Virus record (IMG/VR): IMGVR_UViG_3300048929_000427
Location: 1-20,472 of that record
Length of the DNA: 20,472 nucleotides
Source: a virus
Direction: 5' to 3' (one strand)
A program made the translations under genes and the position numbers. Positions within the stretch are counted from its first letter, which is position 1; every line of letters starts with the position of its first letter. The notes below the pieces were generated by a model. That model was not told the origin of the DNA. It saw nothing but the letters and a program-made list of their open reading frames with translations, and did no database searches. Shown piece by piece: positions 1,735 through 20,472 of this stretch.

Positions 1735-1774
1735 AGAGCCCCTCTCATCAGGGTCGGCCTCAAAAGGGGACAAG

Positions 1775-1810
1775 AAAGGGGGCTGAGACTCGAAAGTCCC
1801 AGCCCCCTTT
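1775..1810 (-). terminator. hairpin terminator after the tape measure gene
   Basis: Two 16-nt arms (1775-1790 and 1795-1810) pair with a single mismatch around a 4-nt loop. The loop reads TTCG on the minus strand, a very stable tetraloop. The hairpin begins 12 nt after the tape measure stop codon and is followed on the minus strand by TTTCTTGTCC. This fits an intrinsic terminator or an RNA 3'-end stabiliser; the tail is not a clean U-run, so termination may be partial, allowing read-through into the minor tail gene. Confidence 0.75.
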
Positions 1811-1821
1811 CACTATTCGGT

Positions 1822-6294: not shown

Positions 6295-6309
6295 TTTTGG
6301 AGTCGGCCT
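6248..6309 (-). promoter_or_regulatory. candidate programmed +1 frameshift window
   Basis: The downstream chaperone frame is open only after its own TGA at 6312-6310, and the upstream frame stops at 6250-6248. Any slip must therefore occur in this 62-nt interval. Two places allow good re-pairing after a +1 slip: the lysine codon in TCC-AAA-A-GTG (run of four A at 6298-6295), where AAA re-pairs perfectly, and CCC-G at 6262-6259, where a proline tRNA could move from CCC to CCG. No X-XXY-YYZ heptamer giving the required frame was seen. The frame geometry is read directly; the slip site is inferred. Confidence 0.5.
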
Positions 6310-6757: not shown

Positions 6758-6794
6758 GGATTACTCCTAAAATTTGTGAGGGAAAGTGGTTGAA

Positions 6795-7307: not shown

Positions 7308-7328
7308 TAGGGCTGCAGGGCTGTGGAG

Positions 7329-7369
7329 CCCGCGGTGGTGGACACAGCCCATAGGCCCACCACCGCGGG
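7329..7369 (-). terminator. hairpin after the major tail protein gene
   Basis: Perfect 13-bp GC-rich arms (7329-7341 and 7357-7369, CCCGCGGTGGTGG with its complement) surround a 15-nt loop. The hairpin starts 34 nt past the major tail protein stop codon. Neither strand has a U-run after the stem, as is often the case for hairpins in high-GC actinobacteria and their phages. It probably limits transcription or protects the 3' end of the abundant tail tube mRNA. Confidence 0.7.
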
Positions 7370-7403
7370 TAGAAAAGGTGAACTCCCAACCGGGAGTTCG
7401 GGA

Positions 7404-8408: not shown

Positions 8409-8431
8409 AAGCTAGTTGTTCCTTTCGAATT

Positions 8432-8447
8432 GCCCTGCTCACAGGGC
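8432..8447 (-). terminator. short hairpin before the major tail protein gene
   Basis: A 6-bp perfect stem (GCCCTG/CAGGGC) with a CTCA loop lies in the 66-nt gap between the 92-residue gene and the major tail protein. It is weak and lies 24 nt before the major tail ATG, so it could be a minor attenuator or chance. Confidence 0.25.
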
Positions 8448-8474
8448 GGCGAGGATTGGTTGGTTGGGGCCGAA

Positions 8475-8753
8475 TTACTTCTCGGCGGGCTTCGCCTTCG
8501 CGGTGGGCGCGGGCAGACCACTGACGAGCGTCTTGGGATCGACAGGCTCGACATCGGCCTCAATCACGAAGCCGGCAGGGATGATCGGGGCGCCGCCGGG
8601 GAACATCGCGTCCTCGGAGAGCGAGCGCTCCACATCGGCGCCAAGCGCCTCGGCCTGCGCGTCGGTCAGGTCGACGGTGCGGTTGGCCGCAACCGACTGG
8701 ACCTTGCCGTCGACGACGTAAGAAACAGCCTTGAGGGTGCGGTACTTCGCCAT
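8475..8753 (-). CDS. small structural-operon protein of unknown function
   Basis: The 92-residue protein starts at ATG 8753 (MAKYRTLKAVSYVVDGK), with GAGAGG 6 nt upstream; an in-frame extension upstream is out of character (Arg/Pro-rich) and crosses the plus-strand gene, so it is not used. Residues 1-45 form a short beta-rich unit ending in VDLTDAQAEALGADVERSL, a pattern seen in small phage head or tail accessory proteins where a hydrophobic 'TVDLTDAQAEALG' motif caps the fold. The C-terminus is Ala/Pro/Lys-rich (GLPAPTAKAKPAEK) and likely flexible. It lies directly upstream of the major tail protein and downstream of the tail terminator. No catalytic motif is visible. A tail or head accessory role is inferred from position only. 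Confidence 0.75.
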   Translation of the reverse strand: MAKYRTLKAVSYVVDGKVQSVAANRTVDLTDAQAEALGADVERSLSEDAMFPGGAPIIPAGFVIEADVEPVDPKTLVSGLPAPTAKAKPAEK

Positions 8754-8785
8754 GTTTTTCCTCTCTTGGAAATTGGGAGATCTGG

Positions 8786-8791
8786 TAGGGT
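8786..8791 (+). promoter_or_regulatory. -10 element for a leaderless transcript
   Basis: TAGGGT matches the TANNNT -10 consensus of actinobacterial housekeeping promoters. Exactly 6 nt (GGGGAT) separate it from the GTG at 8798, so transcription would begin at or next to the start codon. No matching -35 is seen at 17 nt; TTGGAA at 8766 is only 14 nt upstream. No ribosome site precedes the GTG, which supports a leaderless mRNA. Confidence 0.5.
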
Positions 8792-8797
8792 GGGGAT

Positions 8798-9049
8798 GTG
8801 CACGAACCGCCCAGGAATCTCCTGACGAGGGACGTACGTGAAAGCGCCGTCGCCCGAATCGACGAGGACGGCGGCTTTTTGCAGGTCTATTGGGGTGAAT
8901 TCGCACTAGGCGGAAAGATTCAGACCAAAGGCCCGCGCTGCAGGCCGTGGAAGCACACGTGGGATTACGTGACCTACAAGACCGGCGTCGGCCGGCTCAA
9001 TCACGACAAGTTGTGCACCACCTGCAACAGGCGGATACCGCTCAACTAG
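8798..9049 (+). CDS. small Cys/His-rich protein on the opposite strand, unknown function
   Basis: The 83-residue frame starts at GTG 8798, reading (M)HEPPRNLLTRDVRESAV. It is oriented against the late operon, between the tail terminator (its stop codon overlaps that gene's stop by 8 nt) and the 92-residue gene. The second half is rich in aromatic, Cys and His residues: GPRCRPWKHTWDYV, then GRLNHDKLCTTCNRRIPLN. The Cys, the His residues and the final CTTC could make one small zinc site, as in nucleic-acid-binding or anti-host proteins; this is inference. Support for a real gene: sensible protein composition, a TANNNT box 6 nt before the GTG, and a gap in minus-strand genes that it fills exactly. 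I do not recognise the family. Confidence 0.65.
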   Translation: MHEPPRNLLTRDVRESAVARIDEDGGFLQVYWGEFALGGKIQTKGPRCRPWKHTWDYVTYKTGVGRLNHDKLCTTCNRRIPLN

Positions 9050-9473
9050 CGGCTACATACCGGAAGTCGACCTCGTAGAGGCCGATCATCTGGTAAATCT
9101 TTTTGGGCTGTCCATCGTCGACGTATTTCTGCTTACGGAAGTACTCCGTGTTGTAGACATTGTCCGCATATACGTCGCCGGTCGAAATGGTTACCCGCTG
9201 CTGGCCAGTGAATCGGCCGGCGAGATATTCCATTCGCCGGTGCACCAGGGTACAGAAAGTCGAAGCCTTAGCCTCGGTCTCATGAAAGACGTGGATCGAA
9301 TACTTTCCGTTGTCGACAAGCCCATCCGCATTGCCGCCGCCGCGGGCTACCATGATGAATGGCAGCACTGAATTGGTGGGCTTCTCGGTTCGGCACTCCC
9401 CCAGTGGGGAGAGCCATACCTGCAGGACTTCCAGCCCATTCGGCGGCGCCCAGTTGGTCATTTCGACGGTCAT
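9042..9473 (-). CDS. tail terminator protein
   Basis: This 143-residue protein starts at ATG 9473 in an ATGA overlap with the upstream gene's stop. It comes after adaptor, stopper and gp10-like genes and before the tail tube gene, the standard place for tail terminators (lambda gpU-like), which cap the growing tail tube and join it to the head. The sequence is a mixed alpha/beta fold of the right size: NGLEVLQVWLSPLGECRTEKP at the start, a central PFIMVARGGGNADG, HVFHETEAKASTFCTLVHRRM helix, and beta-rich VDFRYVAAS at the end. The central PFI.V.R.GG motif followed by ..D...I.V..F is typical of actinophage tail terminators. The stop converges with the plus-strand gene. Confidence 0.82.
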   Translation of the reverse strand: MTVEMTNWAPPNGLEVLQVWLSPLGECRTEKPTNSVLPFIMVARGGGNADGLVDNGKYSIHVFHETEAKASTFCTLVHRRMEYLAGRFTGQQRVTISTGDVYADNVYNTEYFRKQKYVDDGQPKKIYQMIGLYEVDFRYVAAS

Positions 9474-9943
9474 CGGACGTTCGGTTTCCTCTCCATTGCC
9501 GCAACTGTGCGGCGCATAGGCGCGAATTCTGGAGTGGGTGTTTTCGGGCCCCATGGAGAACGCGATCCCGGCTTATCTTCATTTGTGCCGTATTCGATCC
9601 AGTGGGCCTTTGGGTCGTCGTTATAAACGAGGCCGACCATGACGCCGCCCTTTCGCAGGGCGCGTTTAATCCATAGCCGCTGGCCGAGCGAAAGCTCTTT
9701 CTTCTTGATGTTCCGCCGATAACTCCCCGTTGCGTACGGGTGCGGCCTTCCTGTTTCCTGGGCAAGGACGCCCTCCATTGAGGAGTCCCAGATGAATACC
9801 CAGGTGTCATGAATATCGTCGATGAAACGATGCAAGGCCCGCTTGATATCGCGGTTGCGACTCAGCCCGTCGAAGATCGTGTCCTCGACGTCCTTGTAGC
9901 GGACCTCTACATGCGAAGTGACCCAGGTTTCGGTTCTGGCCAC
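9470..9943 (-). CDS. HK97 gp10-like head-tail protein
   Basis: The 157-residue protein starts at GTG 9943, one nt after the TGA of the upstream gene. The C-terminal half shows the HK97 gp10/tail-component pattern: HPYATGSYRRNI, GGVMVGLVYNDDPKAHWIEYGT, then a Pro-rich loop and FAPMRRTVAAM. In this family an 'A.(Y/W).E(Y/F)GT' strand is followed by 'PF.RPA'-like residues before a final helix; here the versions are AHWIEYGT and PEFAPMRRTV. These proteins bridge the connector and tail completion. Neighbours on both sides (stopper upstream, tail terminator downstream) support the call. It overlaps the next start by 4 nt. Confidence 0.85.
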   Translation of the reverse strand: MARTETWVTSHVEVRYKDVEDTIFDGLSRNRDIKRALHRFIDDIHDTWVFIWDSSMEGVLAQETGRPHPYATGSYRRNIKKKELSLGQRLWIKRALRKGGVMVGLVYNDDPKAHWIEYGTNEDKPGSRSPWGPKTPTPEFAPMRRTVAAMERKPNVR

Positions 9944-9944
9944 A

Positions 9945-10301
9945 TCAGCCGTCCATCCGCTGGCAGATGATCGTCACCTTGAACGGCCGGCCGCGCGGAC
10001 CCGGAAACACCCTTGGCCCGCCGACGATCTGGTAGGTGATGCCGTCGACCTCGACCTCGTCGTTCGACTTGGCTGCCATCACCGTGGCCGTCGGCGGCGC
10101 GGTGCACCTCCACGGGTCGGTAACGATGTCGCCCACGTTGATCGCCGGGGCGTCGATCTCCTCCTTGGCGGTCATCGGACGAAAGCGGCACCCGCGGACG
10201 GGTACCTTTACGCGGACAGTCTCGGGATTGCCCAGGATGTCGCGGTTGTTCAAATCCTCGGTGACAGTGACGAAGTAGACCGTCTGACTGCCTAGCCTCA
10301 T
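9945..10301 (-). CDS. head closure protein (head-to-tail stopper)
   Basis: This 118-residue protein begins at ATG 10301 in an ATGA overlap with the adaptor gene. Its size, beta-rich content and position directly after the adaptor fit the stopper (HK97 gp7 / SPP1 gp16-like) that seals the portal channel after packaging. The N-terminus MRLGSQTVYFVTVTEDLNNRD, a middle region VGDIVTDPWRCTAPPTATVMAA, and the end GITYQIVGGPRVFPGPRGRPF read as small beta-barrel strands, including the 'I.Y.V.G.P..F..P.G.P.....' pattern typical of these proteins in actinophages. No enzymatic motif is seen. Confidence 0.82.
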   Translation of the reverse strand: MRLGSQTVYFVTVTEDLNNRDILGNPETVRVKVPVRGCRFRPMTAKEEIDAPAINVGDIVTDPWRCTAPPTATVMAAKSNDEVEVDGITYQIVGGPRVFPGPRGRPFKVTIICQRMDG

Positions 10302-10858
10302 GCGACCGGAATCAATCGATACTGGTACAGGACGGACTCTTGCATCGGTTGCTTGGCGATACCCCAGCTACGGTCTGTGATACCAGACGCGCGCAGGGAG
10401 ACATCGTCGACCTCGATGCCAGTGAGCTGGCCACTGAGACCCGTGCCGGCGCTGGCCACGGTGCGGTCGATGAGCGCCAGCACCTCCTCGCGGAAGGCCA
10501 TTGCCTCGGCCGCGGCGAAGCCATGCTCCACCGTGATCACCACGCGCCCACGCCAGAAACCGTCCTTGCGGTACAGAATTCCGGGTTCGTTGGTGTACTG
10601 CTCGATCTCGTCGACCGGAACGGTCACGCCATCGTCGGTGCACGAGGTGATGGAATCGACCTTCAGCGTCGGGATGACGATGTAAGGCCATCCGCCGCCG
10701 TCGACCACGAAGGTGTCCGACCGGATCGGCGAAACGTGCCAGCCGCAATACCGGCGGACCTTGTCGAGGGATGTGGCCAGTAGGCGCGCGTTCTCGACAG
10801 GGTCGATCAGCTCGGGGTTGTAGGCCACGACGTCGGCAAGTTCAAGCTCTTCAGCCAT
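10298..10858 (-). CDS. head-to-tail adaptor (connector) protein
   Basis: The 186-residue protein starts at ATG 10858 after a GGGGGG ribosome site. The helical N-terminus (ELADVVAYNPELIDPVENARLLATSLDKVRRYCGWHVSP) followed by a strand region (YIVIPTLKVDSITSC, EIEQYTNEPGILYRKDGFWRGRVVITVEHGF) and a long helix (AMAFREEVLALIDRTVAS) is the gp6/gp15-like adaptor pattern, in which a dodecamer binds below the portal. The motif VRRYCGWHV near residue 35-43 and the '...V.V.YTHGY/EHGF' strand (here ITVEHGF) are family hallmarks. It is the first gene of the resumed connector module after the glycan cassette, preceded by the AT-hook protein and overlapping the stopper gene by 4 nt. Confidence 0.88.
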   Translation of the reverse strand: MAEELELADVVAYNPELIDPVENARLLATSLDKVRRYCGWHVSPIRSDTFVVDGGGWPYIVIPTLKVDSITSCTDDGVTVPVDEIEQYTNEPGILYRKDGFWRGRVVITVEHGFAAAEAMAFREEVLALIDRTVASAGTGLSGQLTGIEVDDVSLRASGITDRSWGIAKQPMQESVLYQYRLIPVA

Positions 10859-10875
10859 GACGGCCCCCCATTCGG

Positions 10876-11148
10876 TTAGTCGGTGGTTTCCTTGCGGGGA
10901 CGGCCGCGGCCACGCTTGACGGGCTCTGCGGCGGTCTCCAGAGGCGGCTCGCCCACGGCGGTCTCAGTCGGTGCCGCGGCAACCTTCGTTTCCGGCGCCG
11001 GCGCGGAGACGGCCTTCTCGAAGTCCTGCAATGAAGCCCGCACCTGGCGGGCCCTATCCTCGGCGTCGACGGCCTCGTAGACCGCCAACTCCTGCAAGAG
11101 GGCTGCGCGGTAATCGGCCGCGAAGTCCCTCACGTTCTGGTCGGACAT
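10876..11148 (-). CDS. small AT-hook-tailed protein
   Basis: This 90-residue protein starts at ATG 11148 (MSDQNVRDFAADYRAALL), with AGGAG 5 nt upstream inside the end of the glycosyltransferase gene; an earlier start would overlap that gene's coding region. Residues 1-48 are an amphipathic, acidic helix pair. An Ala/Pro/Glu linker follows. The last 13 residues (KRGRGRPRKETTD) contain GRGRPRK, the core of an AT-hook DNA minor-groove motif. Small proteins with similar KRGRGRPRK tails are found in many actinophage head modules just before the adaptor; their role is unclear, with packaged-DNA or head binding as possibilities. The DNA-binding idea is inference from the motif only. Confidence 0.78.
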   Translation of the reverse strand: MSDQNVRDFAADYRAALLQELAVYEAVDAEDRARQVRASLQDFEKAVSAPAPETKVAAAPTETAVGEPPLETAAEPVKRGRGRPRKETTD

Positions 11149-11155
11149 GTTTCTC

Positions 11156-11851
11156 CTACCGAGGGTCACTCTCGACCCTCTCGAAATCGTTGATCATGGG
11201 GCTGTAGATGTCCTTCAGCCGCTTTCTGTCGTCAGTTCTCAGGTGCGTGCGGTGCTCCAGGCGGACATCCCACAAAGGCTCAGCGGGAAGCGCTTTCGGG
11301 CCGGCCAGGAACTCGCGCTTGCCGTCGACCGGAGCGGTGACAACGAAGTGCGCCTGCTCGATCCGAATGCCGGGGATGGCGCGGAACAGGCACCGCAGCG
11401 GATGCTGGGCGTAGCTGGAGGCTTCGCGCTGCCAAAGCATCACCTCGGCGGCGTGCGCGTCGGTGGCCGCCAGTCGAGACTTGGTGTCCGCGGGTACGTC
11501 GGAGATGATCTCATCGGCGTCAACCCGGAAAAACCAGTCGCCCGGCTGCGCAAACGTCATGCCGAGCTGGAACATGAAGTCCCGCTTGGCGACTTCGCCA
11601 CCCCACTCGTCCCCCCACCAGACCTTGCGCGACTGATGGATGGTGCAACCGATGCCGGCGCCCGCGGCCGTGCGCAGGATCGCGTCAGCCTGGTCGGTGC
11701 CGCTCGCCGGCTGCATCATGGCACCCGGGAAGCCCGCATACGGGCCGTCAACGGCGATGATGTGGTCGGCCAGTCGCGCGGTAGCGGCAACGCACTCGGC
11801 GAGCCAGGTTGGGCTCTCCTCGTACCAGTTCAGCAGGGCTATGACAGCCAT
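11156..11851 (-). CDS. glycosyltransferase, GT-A fold (third of cassette)
   Basis: The 231-residue protein starts at ATG 11851 (MAVIALLNWYEESPTWLAEC), 13 nt inside the upstream gene, with GGAGG 7 nt upstream. The opening strand-helix, AVDGPYAGFPG at ~33-43 and the DADE at ~111-114 (GDWFFRVDADEIISDVP) are the fold of family 2-like glycosyltransferases, where the DXD motif binds the metal and the nucleotide sugar. The motif WGGEVAKRDFMFQLG (about 83-97) and the C-terminal HRTHLR stretch fit the same group, found in mycobacterial and gordonia phages. The sugar donor and acceptor cannot be read from sequence. Given the dehydrogenase upstream, an activated uronic sugar is one candidate donor. It is the last gene of the cassette before the connector genes. 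Confidence 0.85.
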   Translation of the reverse strand: MAVIALLNWYEESPTWLAECVAATARLADHIIAVDGPYAGFPGAMMQPASGTDQADAILRTAAGAGIGCTIHQSRKVWWGDEWGGEVAKRDFMFQLGMTFAQPGDWFFRVDADEIISDVPADTKSRLAATDAHAAEVMLWQREASSYAQHPLRCLFRAIPGIRIEQAHFVVTAPVDGKREFLAGPKALPAEPLWDVRLEHRTHLRTDDRKRLKDIYSPMINDFERVESDPR

Positions 11852-12018
11852 TCGGGCGCCTCCGCCGAGCGCAATGCACACTCGATGTCGTAACTGCCGT
11901 CCTCGCAGGCGGTGAACGTAAACTCAGGAACGCCGTGGCGGCCAATCTCGATAGCGGTGATGCGATTGATCCAGACCGGCTTTTCGCCTGGGCCCGGACA
12001 TAGCCAGAATCCGCTCAC
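11839..12018 (-). CDS. small cassette protein of unknown function (59 aa)
   Basis: The most likely start is GTG 12018, in a GTGA overlap with the upstream TGA, reading (M)SGFWLCPGPGEKPVWINR; a GTG-extended version from 12048 is possible but would overlap more. GAGG lies 5 nt upstream. The middle is a plausible beta-sheet (WINRITAIEIGRHGVPEFTFTACEDGSYDIECAL), and it ends EAPEWLS, 13 nt into the next glycosyltransferase gene. I do not recognise the family. Translational coupling to both neighbours suggests it serves the glycan cassette or was inherited with it. Confidence 0.7.
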   Translation of the reverse strand: MSGFWLCPGPGEKPVWINRITAIEIGRHGVPEFTFTACEDGSYDIECALRSAEAPEWLS

Positions 12019-12206
12019 GCTGGCCTCACCCTCCCTACGGGTACGCACACCGTCTGGTGGGGCGCCAAACGCTCAGTGCCGCTGCCGTAGTCGGCCTCGG
12101 GATCGATGGCCACGGTGCAACGCGCCCAGCCGTGGTCGATCCGCTCGACGTGACCACGAAGGTCTTCGCCATCGAAGTCGACAATGACGTCGTCGCCGGG
12201 ATTCAT
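12015..12206 (-). CDS. small beta-rich cassette protein of unknown function (63 aa)
   Basis: It starts at ATG 12206 in an ATGA overlap with the dehydrogenase stop, and its TGA overlaps the next start by 4 nt. Reading MNPGDDVIVDFDGEDLRGHV, it has alternating hydrophobic strands (VIVDF, LRGHVERID, ARCTVAID, TVCVPVGRVRP) typical of a small SH3- or KOW-like barrel, a fold used for binding in many small proteins. No catalytic residues are evident. Function unknown; its tight coupling to the sugar dehydrogenase is the only clue. Confidence 0.75.
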   Translation of the reverse strand: MNPGDDVIVDFDGEDLRGHVERIDHGWARCTVAIDPEADYGSGTERLAPHQTVCVPVGRVRPA

Positions 12207-13426
12207 CGTCGCCCCAATCGCTTAACGGTCACGCCATCCCGATCCGGAATGACGCCGAAGGGGTCGACCACAACCGAGCCCTCGGGGAACTCCAGCGAGC
12301 GATACCGCTCATTGTTGGTGGCCAAGAAGTACACAGCCTTGTACATGTAATCCACATCGTTGACGTGCAGGAACTGCTCGCCAGACTGGCGGAGGATATC
12401 GGCCATCAGCATTGCCGCGCTGCCGGTTTCGATGTCGGTCTCGGGCTTGAAGGCCGTTCCGAGCACGATGAGTGGCAGATCATGCTTCTCGGCGTAGTAG
12501 GAGGCGACCTCGGCGTGCCAGGCCTCATACTCCTGGCGGGCGTGCATCAGCGCGTCCCAGATGTTGAAGGACATGTCAACCTCTTCGGCGAGCCAGGACA
12601 GCGCGATATTGTCGCGCGGGTGGCAGCCGCCACCGTCGGACATGCCGGCATCCATGTAGCGGCTCGACAGTAGCCGGCGGTCGGCGAGATCCCAGGCTGC
12701 CTTCATGTCGTCGAAATTCATGCCCATGCGCTCGCACATCTCGCCCCAGCAGTTGGCGATGACCGTCTTGGCGGTGATCCACGTGTTGTACGAGACCTTG
12801 ATTCCCTCGGCCGTCGTCACGCCGGTGCGGATGCACGGGGCATCATTGATCGTGGCGTAGAACTCCTCCAGGAGATCCGCGGCCTCGTCGCTGCAGACGC
12901 CGATCAGGTTGAACTCCGGGTGTAGGTAGTCCTGCAGGACGGTGCCCATCGCGATGAACTGCGGGGTGTAGACATAGTCGACGAAATCGTTGAGTAGCGG
13001 GGCGATCTCGCGGGAGAACGTGCCGGGCAGGCAGGTGGAGATGACCGCGACAGTCTTGCGCACGCCCAGCCGCTCGCACGCCGCGGCGACGGCGGCCACG
13101 CCCTCCTTCAGAAAGGTGTAGTCGAAATCCTCTCTGGCGTCGGGCATGATCGTGGCGCCCTCAAATTCCGGCGCGTGCGGGGTCTGGATGGCGACGAAGA
13201 TGATGTCCGAGTCGGCAACTACCTCGTCGACGGTGTCGTGCCACTGGATGTCATGATTGTCGAGCAGCGGCTGCAGCCCCTCCTCGCGGAACGGGATGAA
13301 GCGCGACTCCAGGTAAGTCTTGACGTCAGGATTGGCGTCGGTTCCGCAGACGGTGTGGCCGCGGCGTTCGATGGCTAGTGCGACCGGCAAGCCGAGCTTG
13401 CCCAGTCCGACATGACCAATTCTCAA
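12203..13426 (-). CDS. UDP-glucose/GDP-mannose 6-dehydrogenase family protein
   Basis: This 407-residue protein begins at TTG 13426 (MRIGHVGLGKLGLPVALAIE) with AAGGGGAA upstream. It has all landmarks of the family that oxidises nucleotide-sugar C6 alcohols to uronic acids with NAD: the GxGxxG Rossmann motif at 4-12; STCLPGT at 130-136; the Lys210/Asn214 pair in EGIKVSYNTWITAK; the catalytic Cys268 in GGGCHPRDNIAL; and the C-terminal GTAFKPETDIETGSAAM (323-339), where the usual Arg is absent. Length matches the usual ~400-450. It is cytoplasmic; its product would be UDP-glucuronate or a related activated acid sugar, used by the adjacent glycosyltransferases. The exact substrate cannot be read. 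It is unusual in a phage structural operon. The neighbouring start overlaps its stop (ATGA). Confidence 0.93.
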   Translation of the reverse strand: MRIGHVGLGKLGLPVALAIERRGHTVCGTDANPDVKTYLESRFIPFREEGLQPLLDNHDIQWHDTVDEVVADSDIIFVAIQTPHAPEFEGATIMPDAREDFDYTFLKEGVAAVAAACERLGVRKTVAVISTCLPGTFSREIAPLLNDFVDYVYTPQFIAMGTVLQDYLHPEFNLIGVCSDEAADLLEEFYATINDAPCIRTGVTTAEGIKVSYNTWITAKTVIANCWGEMCERMGMNFDDMKAAWDLADRRLLSSRYMDAGMSDGGGCHPRDNIALSWLAEEVDMSFNIWDALMHARQEYEAWHAEVASYYAEKHDLPLIVLGTAFKPETDIETGSAAMLMADILRQSGEQFLHVNDVDYMYKAVYFLATNNERYRSLEFPEGSVVVDPFGVIPDRDGVTVKRLGRR

Positions 13427-13444
13427 AGTGTTCCCCTTTGGTGG

Positions 13445-14002
13445 TTAGTCGAGTAGTGCTGCGATGTTTCGCTCGGATGTGTTGCCGCCGTTGCAGTGCA
13501 CTGCGGCAAATGCTTCAGCGAGCGCCTCTGGCGCGTTGAAATGGCCGTCCTTAAACGAGTAGCGGGCCAACTCGTCGTAGTCGACGGCGTCCGTCCATGT
13601 GAGATCGATCAGCGCGCGCGACGGTGCGTCACCGCGATTAGCGTCGAGGATGTGCGCGGCCTCGTGGTAGGTGACGAACTCCATTGGCGTGCAGGACACG
13701 GTCCGCGGGTGGAAGTGACTCGCCTCGTCGTTGGCCATGGACTTCTCGAACGCGGCGCGATCCGCCAGAAATGTCGAGTTGAAGGTGATTACCCCACCGC
13801 CGGCCTGTGCGTAGATGTCATTGAGTGGCTCGGAGTCGATCTTGACGTCCCGCAACTCCGGGTATTTCACGGCGAGTTTGTCTATGGCGCCGTCAATCTC
13901 GGCGGAGAGCGTCGGGTCGGCGCCCTGACTGAGCTTGGTCTCGCCACATGCGGCAAGGGTGGCAACGATAGCCGCGGCGGAGGCGAGATATTTGATGAGA
14001 AT
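13445..14002 (-). CDS. predicted lipoprotein with HEAAH zinc-metallopeptidase motif (ATT start likely)
   Basis: Conventional starts give only 141 residues from GTG 13870, but the frame stays open upstream and encodes a textbook lipoprotein signal: reading from ATT 14002, MLIKYLASAAAIVATLAACG, with lipobox L-A-A-C at 16-19. A GGAGA ribosome site lies 8 nt before this ATT; no ATG, GTG or TTG is available in the interval. Total length is 185 residues. The mature part holds HEAAH at ~113-117 (FVTYHEAAHILDANRG), the HExxH zinc motif, and a downstream EALAEAFAAVHC where a Glu could be the third ligand, as in gluzincins. If exported and lipidated it would act on the outer face of the host membrane. 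It sits between a glycosyltransferase and the dehydrogenase. The motif and lipobox are seen; the start codon and the activity are inferred. Confidence 0.78.
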   Translation of the reverse strand: MLIKYLASAAAIVATLAACGETKLSQGADPTLSAEIDGAIDKLAVKYPELRDVKIDSEPLNDIYAQAGGGVITFNSTFLADRAAFEKSMANDEASHFHPRTVSCTPMEFVTYHEAAHILDANRGDAPSRALIDLTWTDAVDYDELARYSFKDGHFNAPEALAEAFAAVHCNGGNTSERNIAALLD

Positions 14003-14013
14003 GGGCTGTTCTC

Positions 14014-14559
14014 CTAGCGCCCGTATGTCAAGCTGTTCCCCGGGCTGAAGAAGTAGTGGTAGAGCGTCTGATCGATGTAATGCTCGGTCTTTGGCGAGAC
14101 CTGGTCGGCCCAGCGCTTGTCCTCCCCATAGCCGCCGTTAAAACGTCCCTGTCGGGCGATCTCGGTGCGAATCGGGTTGAGGTGGCTGACATTCCGGTAG
14201 TAACCGTTAGCGTCGTCGGACCACTCGTCGTACTCAAGCGAGTGATAGGTGGGCTTCTGGCGCGCTCCGTCGATGTAGAGCTGAAGCTGGAAGCCGATAT
14301 AGTCGACACCGTCGAGAAGCGGGTAGATGGCGTCGACGTAGTTGCCGGCGACCATGTCGTCATCGTCGATGAAGTTGAAGTACTCCCCCGAGGCGTTGTC
14401 CAGGCACCACTGCCGTTTCTCGGCGACGGTTCCCGGCATGTTGCAGGTCATCAGCTCGATGTCCGAGCGAGCCTGAATCTGTGGAGTGAGGGTGTTCATG
14501 AGCCGGGCGTACTCGTGGCGGCGCTCAGGGACTGTGAGGACCGCTATCGTCCACTTCAC
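14014..14559 (-). CDS. glycosyltransferase, GT-A fold (second of cassette)
   Basis: The best start is GTG 14559 in a GTGA overlap with the upstream gene, giving (M)KWTIAVLTVPERRHEYARL and 181 residues; AGGAGG lies 7 nt upstream. A longer frame from further up would begin inside the preceding gene and has no fitting protein start. It shows the GT-A pattern: an initial AVLTVPERRHEYARLMNTL strand-helix, NASGEYFNFIDDDDMVAGNY with the acidic metal-binding motif (DDDD at ~65-68), and the GGYGEDKRWADQV segment (GED, a likely catalytic base region). The end is YFFSPGNSLTYGR. The N-terminal halves of GT2-type enzymes bind the nucleotide sugar. Acceptor unknown. Confidence 0.86.
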   Translation of the reverse strand: MKWTIAVLTVPERRHEYARLMNTLTPQIQARSDIELMTCNMPGTVAEKRQWCLDNASGEYFNFIDDDDMVAGNYVDAIYPLLDGVDYIGFQLQLYIDGARQKPTYHSLEYDEWSDDANGYYRNVSHLNPIRTEIARQGRFNGGYGEDKRWADQVSPKTEHYIDQTLYHYFFSPGNSLTYGR

Positions 14560-15248
14560 TGCATGACCTCCTGCAGTTTCGCCGCGGTGTCGCGAATGAG
14601 CGCCTGCACTTCGGCGCCGTAGTACAGCTCGTCCGGCCGGCACTCCTGGTGGCGGGCCAGGCGCTCGCTGGTGTTCTGATCGATCTCCGCCTTGCCCACG
14701 ATGTAGTGCATGTGCTCGGTGTAGATGTCGATCTCCAGGTGGCGGCCAATGAGTTTGGAGACGTCGTTAAGGAACGTGTCGTTGAAATCGCTGACGAACA
14801 GCGGCGGGAAAAGGAACCCGGCGGTCTCGACCCACTTGCGATGGATGAAGCCGTGCGTCCCAAAGTTGTTGCCGTCCTGGTATCCGTCGCGCCCGAAGGC
14901 GAACAGGATCTTGTCCGGGTAGGCATCGAACGTCTCGCGCACAACGTCGTCCCAGCCGGGCGTGCGAAACACGATGTCGTCGCCGCAGTGCATGATGATG
15001 TCCGCGCGCGACGCGTCGAAGCACAGATTCCACATCGCCGAGAGGTTCACGAGATTATCGCGCTCTCGGGGGCCACGGACCTGCACCCATTTGATGTCGA
15101 TCTGCAGGTCGTCGTATGAATGGTCATCAGAGTCGATGTACGTCACGATCCGGATGTTTTCCGGGTGCGACGCCGTGGCGTTGATGGAATCAACCAAGCG
15201 GCTCAACTGATTCGGCCGCTGGCGGGTTGGGAGGAGGAGGTCAATCAA
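14556..15248 (-). CDS. glycosyltransferase, GT-A fold (first of cassette)
   Basis: This 230-residue protein is best started at TTG 15248 ((M)IDLLLPTRQRPNQLSRL), overlapping the end of the 44-residue gene; AAGGCGG lies 8-9 nt upstream. Starting further upstream would add an Arg/Ser-rich run that is out-of-frame translation of that small gene. 'IDLLLPTRxRPxxLxRL' is the standard opening of phage and bacterial GT2-like enzymes. GDD at 89-91 (IIMHCGDDIVFRTPGWD) is the metal-binding motif, and NNFGTHGFIHRKWVETAGFLFPPLFVSDF (about 128-155) matches the acceptor-side segment, with Asp154 a possible catalytic base. It opens the cassette next to the divergent plus-strand genes. Donor and acceptor cannot be determined from sequence. 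Confidence 0.87.
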   Translation of the reverse strand: MIDLLLPTRQRPNQLSRLVDSINATASHPENIRIVTYIDSDDHSYDDLQIDIKWVQVRGPRERDNLVNLSAMWNLCFDASRADIIMHCGDDIVFRTPGWDDVVRETFDAYPDKILFAFGRDGYQDGNNFGTHGFIHRKWVETAGFLFPPLFVSDFNDTFLNDVSKLIGRHLEIDIYTEHMHYIVGKAEIDQNTSERLARHQECRPDELYYGAEVQALIRDTAAKLQEVMQ

Positions 15249-15375
15249 GGACGGGGACCGCCTTGATGCGCATTTCAGCCTGCTCTTCAGCGGGGCGGTC
15301 AGCCATCTCCATGCAGAGGCGCTGGAAGCGCTCGGCGACGGCAACGGGCTCCCCGCGGTCGGTGAGGACATGCAT
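15241..15375 (-). CDS. 44-residue cassette leader protein, unknown function
   Basis: The frame begins ATG 15375, preceded by GGAGG 5 nt upstream, the strongest ribosome site in the cassette, and encodes MHVLTDRGEPVAVAERFQRL, with an acidic middle (MADRPAEEQAEMRIK) and the end AVPVLD. It overlaps the first glycosyltransferase by 8 nt. No known motif is evident. The ribosome site and coupling overlap show it is very likely translated; it may mainly serve to start translation of the glycosyltransferase. It is too short to identify by eye. Confidence 0.65.
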   Translation of the reverse strand: MHVLTDRGEPVAVAERFQRLCMEMADRPAEEQAEMRIKAVPVLD

Positions 15376-15388
15376 GAAACCTCCAATT

Positions 15389-15406
15389 TGTCTCAATAGT
15401 GAGACA
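15389..15406. promoter_or_regulatory. inverted-repeat operator candidate in the divergent region
   Basis: TGTCTC-AATAGT-GAGACA is a perfect 6-bp inverted repeat with a 6-nt spacer (18 bp total). It lies in the 98-nt gap between the divergent cassette leader gene and the three plus-strand genes, just upstream of the -35 of the plus-strand promoter. Size and symmetry fit a dimeric helix-turn-helix regulator, phage- or host-encoded. It could also be chance or a small hairpin; no binding protein is known here. Confidence 0.45.
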
Positions 15407-15410
15407 TTTG

Positions 15411-15439
15411 TTGCATTGGCGAGATTCGGGACTTAGATT
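15411..15439 (+). promoter_or_regulatory. promoter for the three-gene plus-strand block
   Basis: TTGCAT at 15411-15416 and TAGATT at 15434-15439 are separated by 17 nt and match SigA-type -35 and TANNNT -10 elements. Transcription would start near 15446, about 28 nt before the first ATG, which has an AGGAGAT ribosome site. The inverted repeat lies immediately upstream. Confidence 0.6.
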
Positions 15440-15473
15440 GGGGACACAGGCCACACAATCCCAGGAGATGAAC

Positions 15474-15827
15474 ATGACCGTTTTGCAGGACTTGATCGAT
15501 TCGCGCGACCTTCTGATCCGGGGTGGGTACACCGCCCACTATCTCAGGATGGACGGGCGCCACTGCGCGGTCGGCGCGGTGCTGGATGCCACCGGCAACG
15601 AGGACATCCACGCCTTCATCTACAACACGATGAACGAGCGGGGCGCCGCGGTGATTCGTGCGCTGAATGCCACCCTCCCCGAGGATTTCCAGCCACATCT
15701 CAATTCTCAGCACCTGGGGGACATCGCGTCTCGGGTGGCTGGATACAACAACCGGAGGGGCGAGGAGGCGGTGATCGCAATGTTCAATTCCGCCATCGCC
15801 CGCGAAGAGACGCTCGTCTCGGCCTAA
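15474..15827 (+). CDS. first of three tandem paralogs (DUF6197-like small protein)
   Basis: The 117-residue protein starts at ATG 15474 with AGGAGAT 4 nt upstream, and reads MTVLQDLIDSRDLLIRGGY. It shares with its two neighbours a pattern: MT(V/L)LQDL..SRDL(L/I)(I/V), then W/Y...LR, (H/R)CA(V/M)GAVLD(A/T)TGNE, Y..MNERG.A, a loop (L/I)P, and finally YNN..GE....(L/M)F..AI. The early part, with a helix and a 'CA(V/L)GA' core, resembles DUF6197-type proteins of actinobacteria and their phages, which have no known activity. No catalytic set or signal peptide is seen. It is a likely cytoplasmic protein transcribed opposite to the late operon. Confidence 0.85.
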   Translation: MTVLQDLIDSRDLLIRGGYTAHYLRMDGRHCAVGAVLDATGNEDIHAFIYNTMNERGAAVIRALNATLPEDFQPHLNSQHLGDIASRVAGYNNRRGEEAVIAMFNSAIAREETLVSA

Positions 15828-15852
15828 TCCCAACAGCCAGAAGGAGATTCAC

Positions 15853-16251
15853 ATGACCGTTTTGCAAGATCTGATCGACAGCCGCGACCTCATCATTCGC
15901 GACGGGTGGTCGCTCGGTCGGCTGCGCGGCGCGAACGGAAGCCATTGCGCCATGGGCGCTGTGCTCGATACCACCGGCAACGAGCACATCAACCACTCGC
16001 TCGCATACGACACGATGAACGAACGCGGCCAAGCGGTGACTGCCGCGCTCTACGAGGCAATTCCCGCGGAGAAGCGGGCCTCGATCATGGCCGAATGGGG
16101 CAATGAGATCGCAGAACTCCCCTCGGATTGCGTCCGAGGGTGCATCGTGGGCGACTACAACAACTACTTCGGCGAGTCGACGGTGATCGAGATGTTCAAC
16201 GTCGCCATCGCCCAACAGCGGGCCGCCGCCTCCACTTCATACAAGCGCTGA
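15853..16251 (+). CDS. second tandem paralog (DUF6197-like)
   Basis: The 132-residue protein begins at ATG 15853, 25 nt after the first gene, with AAGGAGAT 6 nt upstream. Its first 45 nt are nearly identical to the first gene's start, showing a fairly recent duplication, yet the middle (RASIMAEWGNEIAELPSDCVRGCIVG) is longer and differs. It keeps the family markers GSHCAMGAVLDTTGNE, YDTMNERGQA and GDYNNYFGE, then MFNVAI. The C-terminus (QQRAAASTSYKR) is unlike the others. Two extra Cys residues (DCVRGC) are specific to this copy. Function unknown. Confidence 0.85.
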   Translation: MTVLQDLIDSRDLIIRDGWSLGRLRGANGSHCAMGAVLDTTGNEHINHSLAYDTMNERGQAVTAALYEAIPAEKRASIMAEWGNEIAELPSDCVRGCIVGDYNNYFGESTVIEMFNVAIAQQRAAASTSYKR

Positions 16252-16265
16252 AGGAGATATCGAAC

Positions 16266-16652
16266 ATGACACTCTTGCAGGATCTGGTCGCCAGTCGCGA
16301 TCTGCTCGTCAATGATGGATGGGTGGCGCACAAGTTGCGCGACTCCGAAACGGGCGCGCGTTGCGCCGTCGGTGCGGTGCTCGACGCCACGGGGAATGAA
16401 GACCTCGACGCGTTCACCTACGGAGAGATGAACGAGCGCGGCGTCGCGGCGGTGGACGCCCTCTATAACCTCCTACCGGTGGGGTGGAAGGGGTATCGCG
16501 AAGCATCGTTGACCACGAAGGCGATCTGCATCGCCGACTACAACAACGGACGGGGCGAGCAGCCCACCGTTAAGCTCTTCGAGAACGCCATCGACGCCCT
16601 CGCGCCGGCAGCCGTGGGCTGCGGCGTTCGGCAAATAGGCGTGTTCCGTTGA
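16266..16652 (+). CDS. third tandem paralog (DUF6197-like)
   Basis: The 128-residue protein starts at ATG 16266, 14 nt after the second stop, with AAGGAGATAT 7 nt upstream. It reads MTLLQDLVASRDLLVNDGW, then ARCAVGAVLDATGNED, YGEMNERGVAA, ADYNNGRGEQ and LFENAI, so it is clearly of the same family but more diverged. The last ~15 residues (PAAVGCGVRQIGVFR) have no counterpart in the first two, and may be an extension after a shifted stop. It is the last gene before the bidirectional terminator. Function unknown. Confidence 0.84.
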   Translation: MTLLQDLVASRDLLVNDGWVAHKLRDSETGARCAVGAVLDATGNEDLDAFTYGEMNERGVAAVDALYNLLPVGWKGYREASLTTKAICIADYNNGRGEQPTVKLFENAIDALAPAAVGCGVRQIGVFR

Positions 16653-16689
16653 CAACGGAACGGGTGAATTAACCGAACAGTGACCACCG

Positions 16690-16725
16690 AAAGGCCGAGC
16701 ACCCGCTATATGGTGCTCGGCCTTT
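16690..16725. terminator. bidirectional terminator between capsid and plus-strand block
   Basis: Perfect 14-bp arms (16690-16703 and 16712-16725, AAAGGCCGAGCACC and its complement) enclose an 8-nt loop. The stem ends in TTT on both strands, so it can serve the three plus-strand genes (38 nt after their last stop) and the capsid gene (34 nt after its stop) from the other side. Confidence 0.85.
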
Positions 16726-16758
16726 CATGGTTACTGAGATGCGCTTGCGCGCAACGCC

Positions 16759-18138
16759 TTACGCGAAGGTCGGCGCGGTGAGAGCGGTACCGGTGATTTC
16801 GGCGATGCTCTCCGAGTGACGCTCGGCGGTGAACGCCAAGAAGCCGTAGACCTGCAGCAGGATCGTCAGGTTGTCGGCCCGCGTCTGGTCGAAGGTCCGG
16901 GTACGGATACCCGATTCGAACAGGAGCAGATCGCTCGCGCGCAGGATGTGGACGACATCCTGGTTGGTGCCGGCGCCGAGGTTGGTCGGCAGCAGCGGGT
17001 CGGTGTACACGGGCAGGCCGTGCAGGTTGCCCACGTAGCCGGCCGTGATGACGCCGCCGTGCGTACCGATCAGCGGGGTGCTCGCGTTGGACGAGCCCGA
17101 GATCAGCGGCACGTCGTTGGCGGTGAACACCGCCTGCAGCTGAGACCAGCGCCGCGGGTGCATGACGATGACCTCGGCCGGCAGGGTGCGCTGAGTACCC
17201 ACGCGCTGGATCGCGTCAGCGATCTTCGCGTAGAGGGTCTTGGCCTTCGACAGCTCGTTACCGGCGTCGGTCGCGGTGATCGTGGTGATGCCAGAGGCAT
17301 TCCGGACGCCCTTGACCTGGCCCGAGGAGTTCGAGCCGTTGATGACCTGCAGGTTGAGCTTGTTCGCGTAATCCGCCGAGAGATCCCGGAAGATGATCTC
17401 GTCGAAGTTCAGCGGCGACTGCTCCAGCGCCTGGATCGACAGCGCCTGGGCACCGGCGATGGTCTTGACCTGCGCCGAGACGAAGGTGTCGGTCAGATCG
17501 ACCTCAGTGATCGCGGTGTTGTCCGCGGTCTGAATGCCGGTCGAGGTGCCGGTCGCGATCTTCGGGATCGAGATCGAGTCCGTGCCGCCGGGCAGCGGCT
17601 CAGACGGCGCCAGGTTGGCGTAGACCCGACCCGGGCGGGACAGCTCGATGAAGCGGTCCATCAGCCATACGGGCGGAACCAGGTAGCCGCCGGTGCCGTC
17701 GGTCCGGTTCAGGGCGCGGACCTCATTGGCGTGCGCATTCAGACGTGCCTGCACCTGGTCGTCACCCATGTTGAAGGCGCGGGCTAGCATGTCCTGGACG
17801 TAGGACTTGCCGTTGCCCTTCTCGTAGGTGCGGTGCTCGTTGGTGACGGTCACGGTCGTGGTAGGACGGGTCACGTTGCGGACCTCCTCGGTGTGGCGGC
17901 CGGCGCGCTCGGCCTCGGCTTCCAGATCGGTGATCTGGCTAGACAGGTCGTCGACCCGGTCCTGCTTGGCCTTGACGCTGGCGGTAGCCGCGCGGAAGGC
18001 GGCGTCCTCGTCTTCGGTCAGGTCGGCGTCGCCGCGGGCCTCGACAGCGTCGAGAACGGCGTCACGGGCGGTGATTTCGGCGTCGATCTCGGCCAGGAGG
18101 GTGGCGCGAGCTTCGATCAGCTTCTGCAAACGATCCAC
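16759..18138 (-). CDS. HK97-fold major capsid protein
   Basis: This 459-residue protein starts at GTG 18138 ((M)DRLQKLIEARATLLAEID) with AAGGAGAT 5-7 nt upstream. Residues ~1-90 are a charged coiled coil, the delta-domain type scaffold that HK97-like capsids carry at the N-terminus and lose by protease cleavage; the protease is the next gene upstream. The body shows the family pattern: DGTGGYLVPPVWL (N-arm/start of mature fold), SISIPKI, TFVSAQVKTIAGAQALSIQALEQSP (E-loop into spine helix), FRDLSADYANKLNLQVING, VIVMHPRRWSQLQAV, GLPVYTDPLLPTN, and a final AFTAERHSESIAEITGTAL. It forms the icosahedral shell. A perfect hairpin follows, so its transcript may end here. As the most abundant protein it is the first candidate acceptor for glycosylation by the cassette enzymes, which is inference. 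Confidence 0.96.
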   Translation of the reverse strand: MDRLQKLIEARATLLAEIDAEITARDAVLDAVEARGDADLTEDEDAAFRAATASVKAKQDRVDDLSSQITDLEAEAERAGRHTEEVRNVTRPTTTVTVTNEHRTYEKGNGKSYVQDMLARAFNMGDDQVQARLNAHANEVRALNRTDGTGGYLVPPVWLMDRFIELSRPGRVYANLAPSEPLPGGTDSISIPKIATGTSTGIQTADNTAITEVDLTDTFVSAQVKTIAGAQALSIQALEQSPLNFDEIIFRDLSADYANKLNLQVINGSNSSGQVKGVRNASGITTITATDAGNELSKAKTLYAKIADAIQRVGTQRTLPAEVIVMHPRRWSQLQAVFTANDVPLISGSSNASTPLIGTHGGVITAGYVGNLHGLPVYTDPLLPTNLGAGTNQDVVHILRASDLLLFESGIRTRTFDQTRADNLTILLQVYGFLAFTAERHSESIAEITGTALTAPTFA

Positions 18139-18319
18139 TAGGGATCTCCTTTCGGATTTTGGGCACGAATAGGCCCGGGCACTGGGTCATTGGGGAGCCC
18201 CGCATGTGCCATGACGGGGTCGCGCCCTCCCCCAGGTGCTTTAGGAGGACACTTCAAACGGCCCCCAGTGCCAGGGAGCAATTCGCGAAAGAACAAGCGA
18301 GGGAATGACCCTCGGGGGC
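18139..18319 (-). promoter_or_regulatory. structured 181-nt leader between protease and capsid genes
   Basis: No convincing gene lies here. A 6-bp hairpin (18298-18314, CGAGGG/CCCTCG) sits 5 nt after the protease stop, with a T-rich minus-strand tail, fitting a weak terminator. Further on, a stem-loop (18198-18219: CCCCG and CAT arms with one bulged base) is enclosed by distant 9-bp arms GGCACTGGG (18178-18186) and CCCAGTGCC (18264-18272). The capsid ribosome site AAGGAGAT is near the 3' end. No clear promoter was found. Leader RNA structure is inferred. Confidence 0.4.
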
Positions 18320-19381
18320 TTAGCGCTCAGATAGGGCGCGAGCGAGGCGCAGGCTCATGCCGCGCTTCGGTGCTTCAGGCTCCTCGGCGACAGGCGCCGG
18401 GATGAGTTCAAGCTTTTCGAGCATCTCGATCAGTTTGGGGGCGCGCTCGCTAGTCGCGTCGACGCCGAAGTGCTCCCGTAGGGCGGCTTCGATCTCGGGA
18501 CTAGCCTCGGATTCGACCGTTTCCGACTGTGCGCGTTCGGCATTCAGCCACGTGAGCACATCGGCACGCCAAACAGCCTCGGCGGTGAGCCATTCGTAGG
18601 TGCGAATAGTCTCGTCGGCCTGGCCTTCGAGTTCGCGGACGTCATCGGCGGCCGGGTCACCGGTCTTGCCGGTCACCGGCTGTGCATCGCGGACGGCAGT
18701 GAGACGCTCCTGTGCGACCTTGAGATCCTTGACGGCATCTTCGGAGCGGACCTCGGCCAATTCGGTCTCGTCGCACTCAGCGAGGTACCGCACCGCATCC
18801 GCCGCGGACCGCACGCCAATCGAGGTGTCCGGGTTGGCGCCGAAGTTCACGATGCTGACGTCACCCTTGTGCAGGGAGACCTCGGTGATGGTGCGGTACG
18901 AGTGGTTGTCGTCGTCGTAACCCTCGGCCGCCCGCCACTCCTGGGCCTTCACCCGGAACGCGAAGGACATTTCGTCCATGTCGCCGCGCTCCATCTTGAC
19001 GAAGATGCCCATCGAGTCGGGATCGCGCTTATCAAGCGTCGCAACGACCTTCAGACCCTTCTCGTCAGCCTCCAGTACGCAGGTGCCCGACTTGGTGCGG
19101 GCCAGCGGCGTGCCGGCGTGGTTGATCAAGAAGTGCAGATCAGGCTTCTCGCGGAGCGTCTTGTCGAACGCGCTGGGGTCGATGCGCTCGATGTAGCCGT
19201 AGCCGTTGGCCGGCCCGCCGTACATCTCGTACTCTTCAAACGTCGAGGCGTAACCTTCGACGACAAAGAGGTTCTCATCTTCTGCGACGTCCCGATGCTC
19301 GATGCGATCCATTGGGATCGCGCGCCACTCCGGGGAGTCGGTGATATTTACTGGCCGCGCGCGGCGAGTCAGTAGATCCAT
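18320..19381 (-). CDS. HK97-type prohead protease with long C-terminal extension
   Basis: This 353-residue protein starts at ATG 19381, sharing one base with the portal stop (TAATG). Catalytic-like residues of the HK97 protease fold are present: His88 in FLINHAGTPLA and Ser139 in GDMDEMSFAFRV, with an Asp/Glu in SLHKGDVSIVNFGAN completing the set. EGYASTFEEYEMYGG and DPSAFDKTL before them match the family opening. Such proteases mature the head by cutting the capsid scaffold domain. The usual length is ~180-220; here about 150 extra residues, acidic and helical (EGQADETIRTYEWL, TVESEASPEIEAALREHFG), follow and could act as a scaffold or be self-cleaved. It ends MSLRLARALSER. Confidence 0.94.
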   Translation of the reverse strand: MDLLTRRARPVNITDSPEWRAIPMDRIEHRDVAEDENLFVVEGYASTFEEYEMYGGPANGYGYIERIDPSAFDKTLREKPDLHFLINHAGTPLARTKSGTCVLEADEKGLKVVATLDKRDPDSMGIFVKMERGDMDEMSFAFRVKAQEWRAAEGYDDDNHSYRTITEVSLHKGDVSIVNFGANPDTSIGVRSAADAVRYLAECDETELAEVRSEDAVKDLKVAQERLTAVRDAQPVTGKTGDPAADDVRELEGQADETIRTYEWLTAEAVWRADVLTWLNAERAQSETVESEASPEIEAALREHFGVDATSERAPKLIEMLEKLELIPAPVAEEPEAPKRGMSLRLARALSER

Positions 19382-20472
19382 TAGTTTCCTTTCCCGCCGG
19401 TTTTGGCAGAAGTGGTTGGCGCCGTGCCCTTCTCTTGGGGCGGCGTGCCGAGTTCGACAAAGTTGGCGGGCTGTAGGTGGATGTCGCCGTTCTCGATGGG
19501 CTCGCGTTCCTCAAGGGCGCGAACCTCATTGACGGACAGCCACCCGTTCTGGAGGGCGATCATGTAGGCCTCGTTGCGGCTCTTGTGATCACCGCGCAGA
19601 AGTGCGTCGACGTTGAACTTGGAGAACTGGCCGCGGGGCAGGATCAGGTCGAACGCCTGCTCGATGCACACCAGCCAGGGCGCCAGAGTGTCGACGACGA
19701 AGCCGATGGACATATGCTCGATGCCCGAGCCGTACGATGTCGACTTCTCGGTGTCGCCGAGTTTGTGCAGCGGGATGCCGAACATCATTGCGATGTCGTG
19801 CCGCTGGAAGGAGCGAGTCTCCAGGAACTGAGACTCTTCCGGCGTGATCTTGATCGACTGCCACTTCATGTTGTTGCCGAGGACAGCCGGGATGCGGCGG
19901 TTGCGGTGCGCGCGCATCCAGCTCTGCAGGGTGCGCTTCACCTGGCCCTCGTCGAGGTCCATTTCCGTGGTGAGAATGCCCGAGGGGTTCGAGGAGTCCT
20001 TGAACCATCGCAGGCCGTACTGCTCGGCCGAGAAGCCAAGGTCAATCGTGGTAGCGGCCAAAGCAACCGGCGAAAGACTCACCGGGCAGCCGGCTGTCGG
20101 ATAGCGCTTGATGTGGAATACATCCGCGCTGTCGACGAGCTTGCCCTTGATGCGGTACCGCGGGCGCGTCCAGTCGGCGCTGCCGTCCTTCGGGTTGTCG
20201 ATGCTCACATCATCGGGATGGACGGGCAGGATGGCCGTGGGCCACATGTTCTTGTCGCGCGCCGTCACGTAGCCGAATGCGTTGCCGGTCACCGCCAATG
20301 ACTGCACCATCATCCACAGCCAGTCCCGCCAGGTCATGTCGGGATAAGGGCTCTGAATGAGTTGCGGCATCGGCTTCACGGGCGCCCGGACGCCGTCCTT
20401 GCGCTTGTAGGCGTTCAGCGGCAGTGAGGACACCGAGTCCGCGAGGATGCGCACACAGGCGAAGAACGCCAG
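19381..20472 (-). CDS. portal protein, HK97 family (partial, N-terminus beyond right edge)
   Basis: The frame is open to the right edge; the first codons read LAFFACVRILADSVSSLPLN, typical of the start of the portal core (conserved 'FACVRILADSVSSLP'). Further landmarks are PYPDMTWRDWLWMMVQSLAVTGNAFG, VVDTLAPWLVCIEQAFD and FNVDALLRGDHKSRNEAYMIALQNGWLSVNEVRALEEREP, the 'LLRGD...R...Y....G..S.NEVR..E...P' motif of HK97 portals. A dodecamer of this protein forms the channel for DNA packaging and exit. It ends in a Thr/Lys/Gly-rich tail (TSAKTGGKGN). About 363 codons are seen; perhaps 40-80 N-terminal residues are outside. Confidence 0.95.
   Translation of the reverse strand: MAFFACVRILADSVSSLPLNAYKRKDGVRAPVKPMPQLIQSPYPDMTWRDWLWMMVQSLAVTGNAFGYVTARDKNMWPTAILPVHPDDVSIDNPKDGSADWTRPRYRIKGKLVDSADVFHIKRYPTAGCPVSLSPVALAATTIDLGFSAEQYGLRWFKDSSNPSGILTTEMDLDEGQVKRTLQSWMRAHRNRRIPAVLGNNMKWQSIKITPEESQFLETRSFQRHDIAMMFGIPLHKLGDTEKSTSYGSGIEHMSIGFVVDTLAPWLVCIEQAFDLILPRGQFSKFNVDALLRGDHKSRNEAYMIALQNGWLSVNEVRALEEREPIENGDIHLQPANFVELGTPPQEKGTAPTTSAKTGGKGN

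Follow-up and report, generated by a model that had tools for sequence, protein, structure and literature searches.

Three tandem DUF6197 genes behind a putative repressor-controlled promoter in the late region of an Omegavirus-like phage

The C1 operators of phage P1 are dispersed, and the stoperators of cluster A phages are asymmetric and also halt elongation. In cluster J mycobacteriophages, divergent genes encoding helix-turn-helix (HTH) proteins have been described as the candidate repressor and Cro; that text contains no word beginning with "operator" (PMC3706429). Multiple genes of the DUF6197 family are present in Gordonia phages of cluster A15 (Nebulosus gp47 and gp72), and a tandem two-domain DUF6197 gene has already been reported for other A15 members (PMC10586128; this was the only paper with the term DUF6197 found in our literature search). 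One of the A15 copies lies beside the DNA polymerase I gene in the right arm, whereas the locus studied here contains three separate genes in the late region, with what appears to be their own double-operator promoter.

The analyzed stretch of DNA, further referred to as the window, is the 20,472-bp virus record IMGVR_UViG_3300048929_000427 from IMG/VR. Its structural genes show about 76% DNA identity to Omegavirus (cluster J) mycobacteriophages over 16% of the window (best hit), and its gene order is much like that of Redno2. The same phage type is represented by two longer IMG/VR contigs, G001 (117,568 bp) and G002 (71,918 bp), with the capsid being 99% identical. The DNA identity of G001 to the window equals 99.4% at positions 1–8350, 97.9% at 8250–11855 and 98.8% at 12015–20472. 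About 160 bp of the window (11856–12014) do not align to G001, with both flanks being approximately 98–99% identical. An Endonuclease VII-type gene (PF02945; 6795–7352, minus strand) is located among the tail genes of the window, and none is annotated in that stretch of Redno2. No tRNA genes were found in G001.

The features of the unit are listed in Table 1. It is situated between the capsid and glycosyltransferase genes and opposes the direction of the late operon. The operator, the three tandem paralogs, each preceded by a ribosome site (AGGAG or AAGGAG), and the two-way hairpin are all present as the sequence-only reading had described them, and its title of a self-contained unit with three paralogs stands. 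The unit is also present in both G001 and G002, where tblastn shows all three paralogs. Immediately to the left of the operator, a 44-aa ORF (15241–15375, minus strand) is found behind GGAGG; it overlaps the start of the next glycosyltransferase-type gene and is identical in G001 and G002.

Table 1. Features of the DUF6197 unit (positions in the window).
Feature	Position	Strand	Remark
Operator O1, perfect palindrome TGTCTCAATAGTGAGACA (arms TGTCTCA and TGAGACA around ATAG)	15389..15406	+	Recurs in the relative G001
Degenerate second operator O2 (TTGC-N6-GAGA)	15409..15426	+	Layout common to four G001 promoters
Possible −35 hexamer TTGCAT, within O2	15411..15416	+	Visual reading; absent from the σ70 scan list
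−10 hexamer TAGATT	15434..15439	+	27 nt after O1, 7 nt after O2
Paralog A, DUF6197 protein, 117 aa (P0001)	15474..15827	+	PF19698, 39.6 bits
Paralog B, DUF6197 protein, 132 aa (P0002)	15853..16251	+	PF19698, 30.0 bits
Paralog C, DUF6197 protein, 128 aa (P0003)	16266..16652	+	PF19698, 34.8 bits
Two-way terminator-like hairpin, 15-bp perfect stem, 8-nt loop	16689..16726		Separates paralog C from the convergent capsid gene

O1 is the sole site of its kind in the window and has no mismatches to the palindrome. Given that 36 of 100 shuffled sequences contained at least one site with up to three mismatches (mean 0.47), the palindrome within the window alone is not decisive. A scan lists it as terminator-like; given its modest folding energy (z −1.9) and its recurrence at promoters, the terminator was rejected and O1 is read as an operator. 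O2 starts 2 bp after O1, overlaps the −35 region and has two mismatches to the TCTC-N6-GAGA core. The spacing between TTGCAT and TAGATT is 17 nt, and the distance from O1 to the −10-like hexamer is the same in the other three G001 promoters described below. A generic σ70 scan of the window found no promoter, and therefore the term "promoter" rests here on the layout recurring in G001. Mycobacterial promoters are often devoid of −35 boxes.

For the hairpin at the other end, the folding energy is −39.8 kcal/mol on one strand and −39.3 kcal/mol on the other, compared to shuffled means of −14.2 and −15.7. It has short T tracts and is absent from the output of the terminator scan. One more palindrome, GTTCCGTTGACAACGGAAC, spans the stop codon of paralog C (16643–16661, 9-nt arms with 1 nt between them). 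It was rejected as a repeated operator, being present as a single copy in each of the two relatives searched.

In Redno2, the capsid and glycosyltransferase genes are separated at this junction by a gap of 116 bp. Four Omegavirus-like contigs (L009, L010, L011 and L018) have a long ORF whose start follows the capsid gene by about 120 nt, and a tblastn search with the three proteins yielded nothing at the capsid junction in contigs L009–L019. The sole match in this set is located elsewhere in L017 and is at chance level (E 0.32). The trio is thus a self-contained insert between genes that adjoin in relatives. The insert lies on the opposite strand, is lacking at this junction in the other capsid relatives that we examined and has its own promoter layout and hairpin; this fits the sequence-only reading of the trio as a true moron, that is, a unit expressed in the lysogen that alters the host or excludes other phages. 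On this reading, the palindrome would serve an activator or have nothing to do with the repressor.

The window has one operator, and the evidence for a regulon comes from G001. At up to three mismatches, the palindrome occurs there at six sites (positions 7129, 46790 in the trio unit, 56141, 114522, 114589 and 115093), versus one for the reversed control. The exact TCTC-N6-GAGA core is found at six sites, all within four regulatory regions, compared to 3, 3, 1, 1 and 1 sites for five control 4-mer cores; TCTCA-N4-TGAGA occurs four times, and five control arms, not once. The full layout (O1, 2 bp, O2, 7 bp, TANNNT) is seen only at 7129+, 46790+ (the trio), 56141+ and 114539− (the Cro homolog), and in five Markov controls it was encountered 0, 0, 1, 0 and 0 times. 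The double-operator layout had first been noticed by eye at these same sites, before the scan. Since the layout was drawn from the sites themselves, a second test was made using the distance from the palindrome to TANNNT over 12 oriented palindromes (six places, both strands). This hexamer, with a frequency of 0.0018 in G001, occurs exactly 27 nt downstream of four of the 12; among the 61 distances tried (0–60), 56 gave none, four gave one, and only 27 nt gave four.

The four promoters precede the trio, a gene for a 90-aa HTH protein at 114.5 kb and two runs of small ORFs. The ATG codon follows the −10 hexamer by 6–7 nt at the three non-trio promoters, and hence their transcripts are likely leaderless; the trio, unlike them, has a leader with a ribosome site. 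The best double operator of the four is the one at 7129 (L026 2130–2180), and a DnaJ-type zinc motif, scoring below the Pfam cut-off, is encoded by the second ORF that follows it. Six other relatives contain zero or one site each (up to three mismatches), four in total versus two for the reversed control, and therefore we take the operator to be specific to this phage type. A literature search covering titles and abstract starts retrieved no paper describing this operator set.

The 90-aa HTH protein encoded behind 114539− (phrog_1702) matches 351 phage records at E ≤ 0.01, and several of the matches listed are annotated as Cro. Its divergent neighbor of 144 aa (phrog_1746) matches 45 records, and many of those listed are annotated as immunity repressor. 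By visual reading, the same palindrome lies in the promoter of the repressor homolog between TTGCAC and TAGGAT, just before the gene start. The repressor and/or Cro homologs are predicted to bind these operators. The order of the repressor, HTH and esterase genes in G001, the last with an esterase-type fold, is that of Nebkiss. The immunity region of the Nebkiss/Gaia type likewise has divergent repressor and HTH genes with GTCTC sites between them and an esterase gene beside the HTH gene, and its HTH protein is 37% identical to that of G001 over 89 aa; however, the repressor is only 33% identical and the operator sequences differ. WXIN, an Omegavirus, has both homologs in divergent orientation (repressor, 37.9% identity over 132 aa; Cro, 41.5% over 65 aa). 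In the intergenic regions of WXIN and Nebkiss, as judged by eye, the HTH gene is preceded by GTCTC sites and the repressor gene by TGAGACTAAGAT. At the HTH-gene promoters of these two phages the GTCTC sites are paired with a spacing unlike that in G001, so that conservation of the exact layout does not reach beyond this phage. The operators of G001 are palindromic and paired at promoters, unlike the asymmetric cluster A stoperators, which also stop elongation. They resemble both these stoperators and the C1 operators of P1 in that one type of site is dispersed over the genome.

All three proteins score above the curated Pfam cut-off for DUF6197 (PF19698; 24.6 bits, whole-protein score) over almost the whole profile and also match phrog_762; the family assignment suggested earlier is thereby supported. 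As tblastn alone was weak (E from 3e-4 to 0.3), profiles were used instead. G18, C33, G36, A37, N93 and A108 are invariant in the 17-row family alignment, which includes near-copies. Differing from other PF19698/phrog_762 members, the trio forms its own clade (100/100) and has YNN in place of the common (F/W)ND. With P0005 as the query, 55 of 50,697 phage records matched at E ≤ 0.01, their hosts being Gordonia (28), Mycobacterium (17), Rhizobium (7), Streptomyces (2) and Pseudomonas (1); no plasmid matched at E 0.01. PF19698 was found in 9 of the 14 records searched, near-copies included (e.g., G008 and W02, of the same length and place), with six genes in WXIN, three in Anon, one in Redno2 and none in G003–G007. 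In G001, the listed PF19698 matches are only within the trio unit; for G001 and G002 this search lists two paralogs, A being missing, and tblastn shows all three.

In 8 of the 10 annotated member loci, the flanks contain replication, recombination or regulatory genes. These include DNA polymerase I (two loci), DnaB (two loci) and an exonuclease and, at further loci, HTH and WhiB genes, DNA polymerase with a methylase, and an Erf-like annealing protein. The other two, Geonosis (beside the terminase) and Milchi (hypothetical proteins only), have no early or replication setting by annotation. The six copies of WXIN, a related phage, include a tandem pair in a plus-strand gene run downstream of the Cro homolog. 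They differ from the trio in lying among small genes at 50.8–58.4 and 83.1 kb, and the pair is a separate duplication. A genome-contig scan with A1 gave 59 stretches and no relatives. A scan by DNA pattern gave eight loci, of which two have DUF6197 genes and the other six were dropped: four genes arranged as two pairs in Streptomyces solincola (L073) and four in a row in Actinobacteria bacterium OV450 (L077). Neighbors at both bacterial loci were read by us as primase- or ATPase-like.

The trio has the same operator and layout as the Cro promoter of this phage, one of four such promoters in G001, and the palindrome is also present at the repressor promoter; by the ordinary logic of temperate phages, the trio would then be repressed in the lysogen and active early. 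We favor, with a probability of about 0.64, the reading of the trio as an early lytic unit located inside the late region and shut off by the immunity repressor. The tandem operators would serve the phage's own immunity repressor and/or Cro, and the repressor would keep the trio silent in the lysogen. Upon infection or induction, the trio would fire early from the strand opposite to the late genes, giving rise to three diverged DUF6197 proteins, and transcription of both the trio and the convergent capsid gene would probably stop at the end hairpin. We infer the direction of regulation, the early timing and the termination at the hairpin from sequence features.

Expression in the lysogen and superinfection exclusion, as proposed earlier, are thus not supported by what the promoter comparison suggests. 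A lack of transcription outside late lytic growth, named by the sequence-only reading as the outcome speaking against it, is near to our expectation, except that the transcription would be early rather than late. We consider a true moron unlikely: its promoter has the double-operator layout of the promoter of the Cro homolog, which is off in the lysogen by ordinary logic; family members elsewhere are mostly found near replication or regulatory genes; and six family proteins had no match in PADLOC. A point in its favor is that O1 is centered near −48, outside the core promoter on its upstream side, a place open to an activating regulator; it is conceivable that the repressor activates the trio instead. 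Given the −35-like TTGCAT and the degenerate O2, the promoter could also be constitutive or only partly repressed. Elsewhere in G001 (115.2 kb; L028 9165–9902), an ORF that we read as a membrane protein, with no Pfam match, adjoins the repressor gene and is preceded by a weak operator, TGTCTCACGTCTGAGCCA. It is perhaps a better candidate for lysogenic exclusion than the trio.

The origin of the trio by duplication followed by divergence, suggested by the sequence-only reading, is supported. The cores GAVLD(A/T)TGNE and YNN..GE are shared by all three paralogs, and the pairwise protein identity equals 62/117, 54/108 and 52/121 aligned residues. In the 39-row tree, which has many long branches and is unsure in its deeper parts, the trio forms one clade (100/100), as do the pairs from WXIN (100/99) and Milchi (98/91). 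Judging from the sequences, local tandem duplication recurs among DUF6197 genes. The codon-based selection analysis suggested together with the duplication gave dN/dS pairs of 0.43/0.96, 0.48/1.15 and 0.57/1.19 between the paralogs (ratio about 0.4–0.5, the synonymous sites being close to saturation). When the window is compared with G001, paralogs A, B and C differ by 0, 4 and 1 replacements and by 1, 8 and 4 synonymous substitutions, respectively; the capsid dN/dS for the same comparison is about 0.05. The changes in the paralogs, few in number, are consistent with purifying selection, and the genes look maintained. The values between the paralogs, with dS near 1 or more, do not show positive selection.

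As to function, we guess from the context and duplication that DUF6197 proteins act in counter-defense or host takeover, that is, on the host or its defenses, with tandem copies intended for different targets. A more specific version, which we hold as a tentative possibility, is an early lytic counter-defense set in which each paralog binds or blocks a different host defense factor, the range being extended by tandem duplication. This version refines the early lytic reading with respect to function and does not compete with its regulatory part. It agrees with the recurrent local tandem duplication and divergence in several phages and two bacterial loci, with the context near early-type genes, and with the proteins being small and mildly acidic (pI 4.75–5.4). 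On the other hand, the dN/dS values between the near-saturated paralogs give no support to positive selection, and PADLOC covers defense and not anti-defense.

The AlphaFold model of paralog C (17 sequences; pLDDT 90.8, pTM 0.83) consists of helices only, except for isolated bridge residues; a model of a member from the OV450 locus has pLDDT 82.8. Foldseek found nothing in PDB at E 0.001 and three matches in BFVD at E ≤ 0.001, the best being uncharacterized or unnamed viral proteins, with the named ones from phages. In a search of PDB by sequence the best E was 0.65, with no match for P0005, and eight proteins had no relevant match in NCBIfam. The top VIA-align match for the models of both members, which are about 22% identical, was the C-terminal anticodon-binding domain of GluRS (Z 5.7, 82 residues, 3.2 Å; and Z 5.5, 83 residues, 3.2 Å for the OV450 model), the best rows outside GluRS scoring 4.0 and 3.0. 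If the modeled fold resembled this domain, the proteins might bind tRNA or other RNA, which we regard as highly improbable: VIA-align warns that Z below 8 (below about 13 in the case of helical folds) may reflect no more than a common arrangement, PDB gave no Foldseek match at the above threshold, and hhalign assigned a probability of 0.1–0.2% against a thin profile of five GluRS C-termini. Homology to GluRS, a recurrent but weak top structural match without profile support, is kept as a lead only.

The trio is a genuine and conserved unit, for which the best reading is an early lytic DUF6197 array under repressor control in the late region. A wider picture, which we offer as doubtful, is that the trio belongs to an early regulon governed by the repressor and dispersed along the genome, and that a double-operator promoter of 50 bp, being portable, was copied before a fast-duplicating DUF6197 array. 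Phages would then generally use such arrays as a strategy, every local copy being adapted to a different target in the host or its defenses by means of a helical fold without a solved relative. For the Omegavirus-like immunity system, the results provide a testable operator code. They also warn against automatically taking a unit on the opposite strand of a late operon for a lysogenic moron. DUF6197 emerges as a widespread phage family with repeated duplications, which makes its function worth finding.
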